From Arthrobacter sp. MSA 4-2 (GTDB lineage Bacteria > Actinomycetota > Actinomycetes > Actinomycetales > Micrococcaceae), in NCBI RefSeq assembly GCF_016405885.1, contig NZ_JAEKGC010000004.1, positions 62,001 to 126,000 of the forward strand: 64,000 nt of DNA, in the 5' to 3' direction. The notes below the pieces were generated by a model. The model did not search any database and was not told the DNA's origin. It saw nothing but the letters and a program-made list of their open reading frames with translations. A program made the translations under genes and the position numbers. Shown here piece after piece: positions 39,879 to 44,067 of the stretch. The stretch's first letter is position 1; each line of letters opens with the position of its first letter.

Positions 39879-40262
39879 TCAGCTCACGATCTCATGGAGG
39901 CAGAGGATGTTCCCCTCCGTGTCGGTGAACCAGGCCGCCCTATGGGCTTCGCTTTCTGCGACATGGTTGACGGTCTTCAGGCCGGGGAGGTCGTAGTCCT
40001 CGAACTGGACTCCCTTCGACTCCAAAGTTTTGAGTTCAGATGCGAGGTCCTCCACCTCGAAGCTGACTTCCGTGTTGCCGGAGGGACCACCGTCCGGTTT
40101 CAGCATGAGCTCGATTCCGTTGCGGCCGTCGTCGCTGAAGAGGAAGGTTCCCTCCTCCATGGGGCCCGTTGGCGTGAGGCCGAGGGACTCCTCATAGAAC
40201 ATTCGTGCACGGTCCATGTCTCTCACAGGCAGGATCGTCGTCGCCTTGCTGGTGCTGAGCAT
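39879..40262 (-). CDS. VOC superfamily (glyoxalase-like) protein
   Basis: 127 residues. TTILPVRDMDRARMFYEESL is the first module, and FSDDGRNGIELMLKPDGG with the closing TDTEGNILCLHE complete the fold. AAGGAG lies eight bases before the ATG at 40262, which decides that start over the GTG-region frame extending to 40295. It stands alone between the tuf terminator and an accessory gene. The substrate is unknown. Confidence 0.85.
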   Translation of the reverse strand: MLSTSKATTILPVRDMDRARMFYEESLGLTPTGPMEEGTFLFSDDGRNGIELMLKPDGGPSGNTEVSFEVEDLASELKTLESKGVQFEDYDLPGLKTVNHVAESEAHRAAWFTDTEGNILCLHEIVS

Positions 40263-40576
40263 GGCAAAACTCCTTTCGTTCCGATGGACACCCACAGTTT
40301 AAGCGTCGGCGGTGGACTTTGACCCGTCGACGGGTACCCCATTAGAGCCGGGGGTCGCCGTCAGCGCACCCGAAAGCGTCGGGCACACCCGAAGGCGCCG
40401 CGAAGGCGTCGGCCGCCCTCGAAAGCGACCGTGGTGCCGGATTTATGCGGTGCGTTCGTCGCAATCAGGGATGCCGGTCGCGATCTGCAACGCCGCCACT
40501 GCCGCGGTCCAGGGTCCCTGTCCACATACCGACGGCGGCGGCGGGCGAAGCGGGGCCTCGCCGTCAATGTTGAGAC
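40263..40576. other. 314-bp region between divergent VOC and AbiEi-like genes
   Basis: No gene is supported. 40371-40429 holds four copies of a 10-bp motif CGAARGCGNC at 40371, 40390, 40401 and 40420 (spacings 19, 11, 19). Promoters for both flanking genes must lie here, but none is distinct. Confidence 0.5.
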
Positions 40577-41545
40577 ATGACGACGTTTTCCACGCTCAGA
40601 ACCTTAGTGCTGTCGACTGCGGAACTCTCGGCTCAGGGCCGGAGCTCCCGATCGCTTCAGCGGAGCTGCGCAGCAGGAGAACTGGTGCGGATCCGGCAGG
40701 GGCTCTATGTCACCAGCGAAAGGTGGGCCGTCCTCGATCGATGGGACCGCTATCGAATGAGGATCCTGGCCGTGCACCTGACAGCGCACCGCCCACCCGT
40801 CTTTTGCCGTGAAACGGCGGCGCTGGTCCATGGACTACCGCTCGTCACGGTTCCTTCCCACGTGCATGTCCAGCAAATCGCCGACGGCTCGGCGCACTCC
40901 CGGGGAGGGGTCCGGCGTCATTGCAGCTCTTCGGCTGCGCCCCCGGTGATCCGGATTTCCGGGCTGCAGGTGACCTCGCTCGAGTCCACGATCGTCGCCC
41001 TCGCCGTCGGTTCGGGTTTCCCTGCCGGCGTCCTCGCGCTCGATGAAGCGCTGCGTCGGGGAACGACCGATCTGGGACGGTTTTCCGAGCTGGAGCAGAT
41101 GCCACGCACGGCTGCAGCCCGGACGCGGCTCGCAGCGGTGCTCGAATTTGCCCGCGGCGACGCAGAGTCACCGGGGGAGTCCCTGAGCCGGGTGCAGGTC
41201 ATGGTGATGGGCTTTCAGGCGCCGGAACTGCAGCGGGTGTTCACCGATGCGCGGGGATTCATCGGCCGGGTCGACTTCTACTGGCCGGAGGCGCGTCACG
41301 TAGGGGAGTTCGATGGGCTGGTGAAGTACTCGAAGCCGGAGTTCCTCAACGGCAGGACCCCCAGCGAGGTCGTCATCGAGGAAAAGCGCAGAGAAGACCG
41401 GCTGCGGGCGCTCGGGCTGCGTGTCGTGCGCTGGACCTGGGACGACCTTCGAGATCCTGCATTCTTGCGTGACCTTCTCACCTCGGCAGGCCTTGTTCCT
41501 GGGCGACCCGTCATTCCGGCGCGTGTACTTCGCGCCCAAGGATAA
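40577..41545 (+). CDS. AbiEi-like antitoxin/DUF559-like nuclease-fold protein
   Basis: 322 residues. The N-terminus resembles the winged-helix of type IV AbiEi antitoxins: SLQRSCAAGELVRIRQGLYV, then FCRETAALVHGLPL. The C-terminal domain is DUF559/Vsr-like: GRVDFYWPEARHVGEFDG, EKRREDRLRALGLRVVRWTW. The D, E and K/R positions recall a PD-(D/E)xK nuclease core. Proteins of this layout are widespread in actinobacteria and usually lack an adjacent AbiEii toxin, as here. No ribosome binding site is visible. The function is not established; a defence role is only a possibility. Confidence 0.7.
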   Translation: MTTFSTLRTLVLSTAELSAQGRSSRSLQRSCAAGELVRIRQGLYVTSERWAVLDRWDRYRMRILAVHLTAHRPPVFCRETAALVHGLPLVTVPSHVHVQQIADGSAHSRGGVRRHCSSSAAPPVIRISGLQVTSLESTIVALAVGSGFPAGVLALDEALRRGTTDLGRFSELEQMPRTAAARTRLAAVLEFARGDAESPGESLSRVQVMVMGFQAPELQRVFTDARGFIGRVDFYWPEARHVGEFDGLVKYSKPEFLNGRTPSEVVIEEKRREDRLRALGLRVVRWTWDDLRDPAFLRDLLTSAGLVPGRPVIPARVLRAQG

Positions 41546-41656
41546 GAACCAGCTGACTCTCTGGAGCGCGTCGACGCATCTATCAGATTGCCAGTGCCCG
41601 GCAGGGGTGGTTGCAATCCGCAACGACCGGCGCACTTTGAAACGTCGGCCGAGCCA

Positions 41657-41712
41657 GAAAACGACAAAGCGCCCCGGTATTTCCGGTCCGCAGGTCGCTT
41701 CCAGGCGCGCTG
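41657..41712. repeat. 56-bp REP-like repeat, copy 1
   Basis: Matches 41880-41935 with one mismatch in 56 bases. Each copy contains an interrupted palindrome (41662-41697 here): arms CGAC, GCG and CCGG pair with CCGG, CGC and GTCG around a TATTT centre. It resembles a repetitive extragenic palindrome, not a coding remnant. Confidence 0.85.
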
Positions 41713-41879
41713 GCAGTAGTAGGGCGCGCTGGTCGTGCTGGCTCCTGAGCGCGGCGAGCGGGGTGAAGGCTCCGGCCAGCGTGGCATGCATGGCGGGAGG
41801 GGCGACAGTCCCGGCCAGCGCGGCGTCGGCGGCGGGCCAGAGGCAGGTCGGAGACCTCCTCATGGCGACGTTCTAACCC

Positions 41880-41935
41880 GAAAACGACAAAGCGCCCCGG
41901 TATTTCCGGTCCGCAGGTCGCTTCCAGGCGTGCTG
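41880..41935. repeat. 56-bp REP-like repeat, copy 2
   Basis: Direct-orientation copy of 41657-41712, offset by 223 bases, with the palindrome at 41885-41920. The flanks differ beyond the repeat, so the boundaries are sharp. Confidence 0.85.
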
Positions 41936-42116
41936 ATCGGGATTAGGTGCGCGGGCCGTAATCGGGCGCAGCCGGCGCGGCTCCCGCCGTCCGGCGGCTC
42001 CCTCCGCCCGGCGCGGCACCCGACGCACTGCGGCCGGCCGGGGGAGAGGCTCGTCACCCCCGCGCGCCGGGCACGACACGCCGCCCAGATAGCCGCAAAT
42101 CCCCGCGGATTGGCGT

Positions 42117-42247
42117 TTGCGCGGTATCTCTGCCAGACTAGACAAGTTGTTCAAGTGCTTGCGCGTGCGGTTTGAGACCCGGGTCCCGGTCAGGATAATG
42201 CCTGATGCAGGGTCAAGGTTCACCGGTCAGCGTGGCCCAAATATAAT
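42117..42247 (+). promoter_or_regulatory. Tandem promoters of the S10 operon
   Basis: Three candidates: TTGCGC (42117) with TAGACA (42139), spacer 16; TTGAGA (42172) with GATAAT (42194), spacer 16; and TTCACC (42219) with a perfect TATAAT (42242-42247), spacer 17. The last is the best sigma-A match in the window. Confidence 0.6.
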
Positions 42248-42457
42248 CCATCCCGTTCAGCCTGGCTGATATGCGCGGAATGTGCGTGTCGAGAAAAACG
42301 CGACACGCCCGAGCGCGGGGGTCGGAGCCTCAGCAGGGTGAGGAACCCGGAATCGTCCGGATTCAGCCTGTGGGGGAGCGCCGAACAACGGGCGCAGACA
42401 ATGTACGTACCGGAACTGCCCCCGGCAGTTTTCATGTAGAGAGAGAGTCGAGACGCC

Positions 42458-42766
42458 ATGGCGGGACAGAAGATCCGCATCCGGCTGAAGTCATATGACC
42501 ACGAGGTCATTGATGTTTCAGCGCGGAAGATCGTTGAGACGGTGACGCGCGCAGGCGCTACGGTAGTTGGCCCCGTGCCGCTGCCGACGGAGAAGAACGT
42601 TTTCGTTGTGATCCGGTCCCCGCACAAGTACAAGGACAGCCGTGAGCACTTCGAAATGCGGACTCACAAGCGTCTGATCGACATCATTGACCCCACGCCT
42701 AAGGCCGTTGATTCGCTGATGCGTCTCGACCTGCCTGCGGACGTGAACATCGAAATCAAGCTGTAA
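42458..42766 (+). CDS. rpsJ: 30S ribosomal protein S10
   Basis: 102 residues. [40 protein letters not shown] and [14 protein letters not shown] are diagnostic. Besides its place in the 30S head, S10 (NusE) joins antitermination complexes. GAGAGAG lies a little upstream of the ATG. It is the first gene of the S10 operon, with a long untranslated leader. Confidence 0.98.
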
Positions 42767-42782
42767 GGGAGAGCGGATACAC

Positions 42783-43439
42783 ATGTCTACTTCACTTACG
42801 CGCCAGGTCAAGGGCCTGCTGGGCATCAAGCTCGGCATGACCCAGGTCTGGGATGAGAACAACATCCTCGTTCCTGTCACCGTCGTTCAGGCGGACTCGA
42901 ACGTCATCACGCAGCTGCGCACCGCGGACAAGGACGGCTACAGCGCCGTGCAGATCGGCTTCGGCCAGATCGACCCCCGCAAGGTGACCAAGCCGCTGGC
43001 AGGCCACTTCGATAAGGCCGGGGTCACCCCGCGCCGTCACGTGGTCGAGCTGCGCACCGCCGACGCCGACACCTACGAGCTGGGCCAGGAACTCTCCGTT
43101 GAGATGTTCGCTGCCGGCCAGACGGTCGACGTTATCGGCACCACCAAGGGCAAGGGCTTTGCCGGCGTCATGAAGCGCCACGGTTTCCACGGCGTCGGTG
43201 CCTCGCACGGTGCCCACAAGAACCACCGCAAGCCCGGCTCCATCGGTGGTGCGTCCACCCCCAGCCGCGTCTTCCGGGGCATGAAAATGGCAGGCCGCAT
43301 GGGCGCCGTTCGCCAGACCACGCTGAACCTCACGGTTCACGGCGTGGACGCCGAGAAGTCGCTGCTGCTGATCAAGGGCGCTGTACCCGGCGCCCGCGGC
43401 CAGGTCGTCCTCGTACGCACTGCCGTGAAGGGAGCATAG
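42783..43439 (+). CDS. rplC: 50S ribosomal protein L3
   Basis: 218 residues. [18 protein letters not shown] opens the protein and [15 protein letters not shown] with [15 protein letters not shown] form the long loop that reaches the peptidyl transferase centre. It initiates 50S assembly. The gene follows rpsJ by 16 bases and precedes rplD by 4. Confidence 0.98.
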
Positions 43440-43443
43440 CCAG

Positions 43444-44067
43444 ATGGCTGTCCAAACAGTAAAGGTCGATCTCCCCGCCGAGATCTTCGACGTTCAGACG
43501 AACGTGCCGCTGCTGCACCAGGTTGTCGTGGCCCAGCTTGCGGCTGCCCGTCAGGGTACCCACAAGACCAAGACCCGCGCCGAGGTGAGCGGTGCAGGCC
43601 GCAAGCCGTTCAAGCAGAAGGGCACCGGCCGCGCCCGCCAGGGTTCGATCCGCGCCCCCCACATGACCGGTGGTGGCGTTGTCCATGGGCCCACGCCCCG
43701 CGACTACAGCCAGCGCACCCCCAAGAAGATGAAGGCCGCCGCCCTGCGCGGAGCCCTCTCGGACCGCGCCCGCAACGGCCGCATCCACGTTCTTGAGTCC
43801 CTGGTGGCCGGCGAGAAGCCGTCGACTAAGGGTGCTATCGAGACGCTGCGTTCGATCTCCGAGCGGCCCAACCTGCTCGTGGTCATCGAGCGCGCCAACG
43901 ACGTATCGGCACTGTCGGTACGCAACGTCCCCGGGGTTCACGTGCTGTACGTTGACCAGCTCAACACGTACGACGTGCTGGTTTCCGACGATGTGATCTT
44001 CACGAAGGCCGCCTACGACGAGTTCGTCCAGTCGGCTGACGCAACATCGAAGGAGGAGGCCAAGTGA
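43444..44067 (+). CDS. rplD: 50S ribosomal protein L4
   Basis: 207 residues. The tunnel loop reads [18 protein letters not shown] and [17 protein letters not shown], where macrolide-resistance changes are known; the sequence is the usual sensitive form. L4 is the autogenous repressor of the S10 operon in E. coli; no equivalent target could be judged here. The stop overlaps the rplW start (GTGA). Confidence 0.97.

Follow-up and report, generated by a model that had tools for sequence, protein, structure and literature searches.

Neisseria and Haemophilus carry repeated terminators containing uptake sequences, the conserved sequence being present as inverted pairs at gene ends. REP families are usually given as numbering more than 100 copies (PMC2817692), and for the RAYTs studied, GTAG and the stem both play a part in recognizing a REP (PMC8266576). 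In the species analysed in PMC3733652, REPs located between convergent ORFs adjoin both 3' ends. The same account describes CGTC-REPs, which have no dedicated transposase, are common at convergent gene ends and consist of an 8–9 bp stem, a CGTC tag that is left unpaired and a brief tail, mostly CCA. These were reported from five phyla, with Actinobacteria not among them and the words 'Actinobacteria' and 'Arthrobacter' occurring zero times in the main text, and untagged REP-like families are mentioned for M. tuberculosis (PMC3733652). Hairpins can also be created and maintained by template switching (PMC8794818). A RepRanger table lists Arthrobacter livingstonensis (PMC12306157), and no published account of the palindrome family described here was found in the titles and abstract openings of the literature searched.

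The window analysed here is a stretch of 64 000 nucleotides from Arthrobacter sp. MSA 4-2, in which the sequence-only reading had noted a pair of near-identical repeats, each holding an interrupted palindrome. The pair was confirmed, with the starts of copies 1 and 2 lying 223 bp apart and the sole mismatch located at position 52 of the copy, and the arms described, CGAC/GTCG, GCG/CGC and CCGG-TATTT-CCGG, were present in the window copies (Table 1). A 26-bp core pattern searched in the window at up to three mismatches matched at copies 1 and 2 only, and two matches arose in none of 100 dinucleotide shuffles of the window.

The core was also compared with the rest of the genome and with relatives. 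The pattern CGACNNNCGCRCCCGNNNNNTCGGGTGCG at up to three mismatches gave 38 matches over both strands of the own genome and two in the reversed control. The 32 own copies used to build a covariance model included the window pair, and the model was searched at E ≤0.001 against 38 genus genomes, some of them draft, with both strands counted, up to 128 preliminary candidates scored in each genome and all counts being lower bounds; scores of own copies, which built the model, are not independent, and those of the relatives are. The core of copy 1, itself part of the model alignment, was matched at C30:103643–103716 with E 2.7e-7. At least 65 matches were obtained in the own genome (about 33 palindromes), at least 61 in A. 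crusticola (G007) and at least 54 in the uncultured Arthrobacter AVDCRST_MAG83 (G013). Lesser carriers had at least 14 (G015), at least nine (G036), at least eight (G005), at least six (G028), at least five (G030), at least three (G010) and at least two (G017), and the other 28 of the 38 genomes had none among the matches listed. The family is rich in the own genome and two close relatives, with few or no matches among those listed in the other 35 genus genomes.

A dyad scan found 33 palindromes in the fetched own loci, again including the window pair, and none in three 64-kb Markov sequences or in 200 kb of other own DNA. Beyond the genus, the pattern was searched in 109 genomes with two mismatches allowed and gave 0–4 matches per genome, in total 62 against 27 in the reversed control; few of these were palindromic (e.g. 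G074 and G128), and no genome among the 109 showed a family. Matches in Streptomyces mangrovisoli and Serinibacter arcticus had no adjoining half-units and were taken as chance. The REP-like family is real and clade-specific within Arthrobacter. The sequence-only proposal of a REP/BIME-like element was borne out in that the pair belongs to a dispersed, intergenic, palindromic, REP-like family with clustered copies, and the many further copies mean that the pair is not a lone duplication.

The repeating half-unit is 19 bp long, CGACnnnCGCACCCGAWAR, and is arranged head to tail toward the dyad. Two central half-units overlap by 2 bp to give a 36-bp core, beyond which further half-units follow at exact 19-bp steps, often as 2+2 and at a maximum of 6+2. 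Some loci contain two to four palindromes approximately 80–230 bp apart, and the window pair is one such locus. The half-unit at up to three mismatches matched 92 times, against 25 in the reversed control, and the matches at up to two mismatches all lay at palindrome loci, for a pattern that demands a following CGAC and has isolated single units outside its reach. These numbers, not thousands, and the position of the closer matches led to rejection of the idea that the half-unit is an uptake sequence.

The core stem has up to 15 pairs, with the CGAC/GTCG ends paired within it. CGAC and CGCACC are retained even in half-units at outer positions, where pairing is poorer (71 % of cells paired in the alignment, compared with 82 % for inner half-units). 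Pooled pairing over the alignment was 76.1 % against 73.2 % in shuffles, a modest excess that one of 500 shuffles reached. Several poorly paired members, at L076, at L078 and in the window pair, keep one half (approximately ATATTTCCGGTCCGC) better than the other, and these may possibly represent a second functional type.

Table 1. Features at and around the repeat pair; positions are those of the window
Feature	Position	Strand	Detail or support
56-bp tract, copy 1	41657–41712	+	55/56 identity with copy 2
56-bp tract, copy 2	41880–41935	+	55/56 identity with copy 1
Copy 1 core palindrome, 36 bp, degenerate, 8/15 pairs	41662–41697	+	Half-units 41662–41680 (>) and 41679–41697 (<)
Copy 2 core palindrome, 36 bp, degenerate, 8/15 pairs	41885–41920	+	Half-units 41885–41903 (>) and 41902–41920 (<); dyad scan
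Outer 19-bp half-unit left of copy 1	41643–41661	+	Weight-matrix score 12.4
Outer 19-bp half-unit left of copy 2	41866–41884	+	Weight-matrix score 14.6
Third core palindrome, 11/15 pairs, upstream of AbiEi-like gene	40426–40461	+	Dyad scan
Outer half-unit of third palindrome	40407–40425		Score 9.4
AbiEi-like gene, 322 aa, between third palindrome and pair	40577–41545	+	ORF; PADLOC AbiEi E 1.3e-11
Short ORF between tuf and rpsJ	39879–40295	minus	ORF
Presumed rpsJ (S10), first gene of downstream operon	42458–42766	+	ORF; matched in 36/38 genus genomes

The surroundings of the pair had been described as a gene-poor island between essential operons. This was partly right, except that the stretch between tuf and the ORF that we take from its translation to be rpsJ holds both an AbiEi-like gene and a minus-strand ORF. 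The AbiEi-like product matched Pfam AbiEi_4 with E 3e-4, under the curated cut-off. Relatives at about 50 % identity occupy the tuf–rpsJ region in G005, G036 and G028, and in G015 and G030 the region has neither an AbiEi-like gene nor strong half-units. Two sigma-70-like promoter matches were seen upstream of rpsJ at 42172–42247, in a stretch that is almost the same in A. crusticola. The only Rfam match in 40000–43500 was below its cut-off and inside rpsJ, and the 11 family loci submitted gave no match at the gathering threshold.

The gene context of the palindromes was determined with a home-made codon-usage caller, which missed the AbiEi-like gene. On these calls the 24 palindrome clusters comprised 11 convergent, eight tandem and five divergent cases; the window clusters were called divergent, where inclusion of the AbiEi-like gene should make the palindrome at 40426 divergent and the pair tandem, and L092, counted as tandem, looks convergent by eye. 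In a background set of 122 gaps, each 75 bp or longer and taken from 264 kb, 19 were convergent, compared with the 11 of 24 clusters (Fisher p 0.002). Convergence was related to pairing: at a 14-pair threshold chosen after the data were seen, 10 of the 13 clusters whose best core had at least 14 of 15 pairs were convergent, against one of the remaining 11 (Fisher p 0.0013). Both gene ends were located 11–47 bases from the array in seven of these 10 convergent clusters, and in two others a called gene end overlapped an outer unit. At the convergent loci L080, L089 and L091 both genes had Pfam support, as did the single gene tested at a fourth, L077.

Fourteen palindromes had 14 or more pairs; twelve of them folded with z-scores from −7.0 to −13.1 and the other two with −2.8 and −5.4, and the eight bases after the stem contained 2–5 T for well-paired cores (0–5 for all cores). 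Stable hairpins between convergent genes were found for most of the well-paired clusters and not for the window pair. In the family register only eight of 15 core pairs form in each window copy, although the noted arms are present, and the 74-base units of copies 1 and 2 folded with z-scores of −1.9 and −0.2 on the + strand and −1.8 and −3.8 as reverse complement. The window pair is weak to moderate in folding and was not among the sites listed by a terminator scan. Weakly folded and lying downstream of the AbiEi-like gene, the pair appears to be under little selection and probably consists of worn, decayed members of the family.

On balance we favour, from sequence comparison, a REP-like, clade-restricted family whose well-paired members would be bidirectional terminators or 3'-end hairpins, and of which the window pair would be a decayed and recently converted example. 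Transcripts of either strand would fold into a hairpin with some 15 pairs in its stem and a short T-run after it, and the well-paired palindromes would thereby stop transcription from both converging genes, or stabilize their 3' ends. Sites stay in place between close relatives, as seen for the loci fetched, and the changes in sequence and copy number at a site would come from local gene conversion, recombination between copies and template switching in replication. Compensatory change alone is no proof of selection on RNA, and the link of good pairing with convergent genes is the stronger argument here. With well-paired copies standing at convergent gene ends and decayed ones elsewhere, the terminator hypothesis lends itself to a direct test.

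To follow individual sites, 33 loci were fetched from the relatives (17 from G007 and 16 from G013), chosen among the strongest model matches, plus one pattern match; 32 of these matched an own palindrome locus by their flanks, mostly at 90–97 % identity. Core changes were counted over 28 hand-picked ortholog comparisons, not all independent, which excluded L076, L077, L078 and L079, loci with several palindromes whose correspondence was ambiguous; for L085 and L088 no ortholog had been fetched, and two doubtful comparisons, of the first palindrome at L084 with L218 and with L230, were retained. Over these 28 comparisons the 36-bp core differed at 10.9 % of positions. Double changes numbered 12 in 420 inner pairs, compared with 3.1 expected from the single-site rate, and eight of the 12 still pair. 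Of the inner pairs, single changes disrupted 18 and created 12; the corresponding counts for the outer helix were 50 and 59. As outer pairs were lost and gained about equally, outer pairing is not maintained. Copy number also varied by site, with three copies in the own genome, one in G007 and four in G013 at L076, three in the own genome and one in G007 at L077, and three, two and three respectively at L078.

The sharp boundaries and near identity of the window pair had been read as recent duplication or movement. This was not supported, as both positions have A. crusticola counterparts with divergent cores. The same place in A. crusticola holds three palindromes, and the flanks pair own copy 1 with the second of them and own copy 2 with the third; the flank match is clear for copy 2, and that for copy 1 rests on a gapped alignment (74.8 % over 127 bases) and is invisible without gaps. 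Own copies 1 and 2 agreed with the third A. crusticola palindrome at 48 and 46 of 56 positions and with the second at 44 and 44. The second and third differ from one another at 13 of 56, which argues for homogenization over new insertion. The 55/56 identity seems best explained by recent local conversion between two older copies, or replacement of one by the other, either of which would leave sharp tract boundaries.

Genes between family palindromes were met in three cases, found without a systematic search. Besides the AbiEi-like gene of the window, an amino acid permease gene lies between two palindromes at the L078 site of G013 (L231 1569–2963) and is absent at the matching own site. In the third case, the fumC site of A. 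crusticola (L129 4340–6657), an MFS transporter and a TetR regulator stand between two palindromes. An insertion of these TetR/MFS genes was considered and rejected, with loss elsewhere being likelier, since TetR and/or MFS relatives are found beside fumC in 19 of 30 genomes. For the same reason, the own genome and G013, which have one palindrome and no TetR/MFS genes, have probably lost these neighbours of fumC, and recombination between two palindromes could have removed them. TetR/MFS genes are likewise missing at fumC in G015 and in four genomes without the family (G001, G011, G016 and G037).

The region past fumC was read in 30 genus genomes and contained the family palindrome in five (G000, G007, G013, G015 and G030); in G005 the sequence ends at this site. 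A triplet of the palindrome is ATC/GAT in G015 and GAA/TTC in G013, so that both arms differ together, and in the carrier G007 a mismatch leaves a perfect stem of fewer than nine pairs. Among the 24 readable non-carriers, 14 had a different perfect stem of at least nine pairs within 130 bases before the fumC end, including two (G018 and G023) in which the stem counted is a palindrome near the TetR start and not the fumC end, and 10 had no perfect 9-pair stem. When 1000 stretches of 135 bases were drawn at random from the own genome, 16 had such a stem, and under a laxer measure allowing mismatches the fumC site was poorly separated from background. This gives a real but moderate hint that the end of fumC is generally kept as a hairpin. 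In many non-carriers a TetR gene on the same strand neighbours fumC, so that the site is not convergent in all genomes. Many of them also share a ATTTGCAC...GTGCAAAT palindrome before the TetR gene (fumC 3' loci L178, L180, L182 and others), which is probably the operator of that gene. A genus-wide GGGGYGCACC terminator family was considered and rejected, the exact pattern having 0–2 sites per genome and any site in only seven of 38; given this rarity, the hairpins of non-carriers do not form a single dispersed family with that sequence.

A broader picture is offered tentatively, as possible rather than probable: a transposase-free family built from a 19-bp module would serve as the standard bidirectional terminator of one Arthrobacter clade, would multiply and stay perfect through template switching and gene conversion, and would mark gene gain and loss between palindromes. 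Because orthologous copies of this small family exist in three closely related species, one can follow at each site the compensatory changes, conversion, shifts in copy number and perhaps loop inversion.

The palindromes might instead be functionless, arising and staying perfect through template switching at inverted repeats while accumulating between genes, which we regard as fairly unlikely. Template switching can produce compensatory changes (PMC8794818). At one site (L092 1539, L206 and L225) the 6-base loop reads AATTAT in G007, and G013 has its exact reverse complement, ATAATT, perhaps a trace of template switching; this lone case was spotted by eye among the orthologous palindromes and concerns an A/T-only loop, for which chance is not negligible. 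A purely mutational process does not predict the tie of pairing to convergent gene ends (10/13 against 1/11).

It is improbable that these are true REP/BIME elements, that is, non-autonomous elements spread by a RAYT (TnpA_REP), with the window pair as a recent hop or duplication. The palindromes are dispersed, intergenic and often clustered, their distribution among species is patchy, and one H41 site has an element where the own genome has none, at a divergence too great for a clean junction. The check for a RAYT gene suggested by the sequence-only reading came out negative, with PF01797 (Y1_Tnp), which we take to be the family of RAYTs, found in neither the own genome nor the nine further carrier genomes searched, some of which may be incomplete drafts; the control was positive in five of 14 genomes, E. 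coli included. An alignment of 32 copies contained GTAG at no fixed place in its 74 positions, 32 of 33 loci are common to close relatives, and about 33 copies are few. CGTC-REPs likewise pose the puzzle of multiplication without a dedicated transposase (PMC3733652).

The 19-bp half-units could also be sites for a DNA-binding protein, with arrays acting as operators or chromosome-organizing sites. The retention of CGAC and CGCACC in outer, poorly pairing half-units, the exact 19-bp phase and the ATATTTCCGGTCCGC-like half kept by several poorly paired members would fit such a role. Against it stands the strong preference of well-paired members for gene 3' ends, and we consider this reading quite improbable. 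A mere local duplication unconnected with any family, to which the finding of only two close copies in searches of both window and own genome would point, is refuted, being extremely improbable given members genome-wide and in relatives and A. crusticola counterparts at both positions.

The favoured reading of a clade-restricted family with terminator-like members can be placed against known systems as follows. The family resembles RAYT-borne REP/BIME elements in consisting of short, dispersed, intergenic palindromes clustered at some loci; it differs in its few copies (about 33), in having no RAYT in the carriers tested and no fixed GTAG in 74 positions, in a longer structure of a 36-bp core with 19-bp outer units, and in sites that are common to close relatives. 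With CGTC-tagged REPs it shares palindromic structure, the lack of a dedicated transposase and a location at convergent gene ends, whereas its stem reaches 15 pairs and its CGAC/GTCG ends are paired, with no unpaired CGTC tag. The reuse of a conserved sequence as inverted pairs at gene ends is a likeness to the uptake-sequence terminators of Neisseria and Haemophilus. Like bidirectional intrinsic terminators, the family combines a GC-rich stem, placed where genes converge, with a T-run on each strand; unlike them, it has short T-runs (2–5 of 8), outer units, and one sequence used across many unrelated gene pairs.
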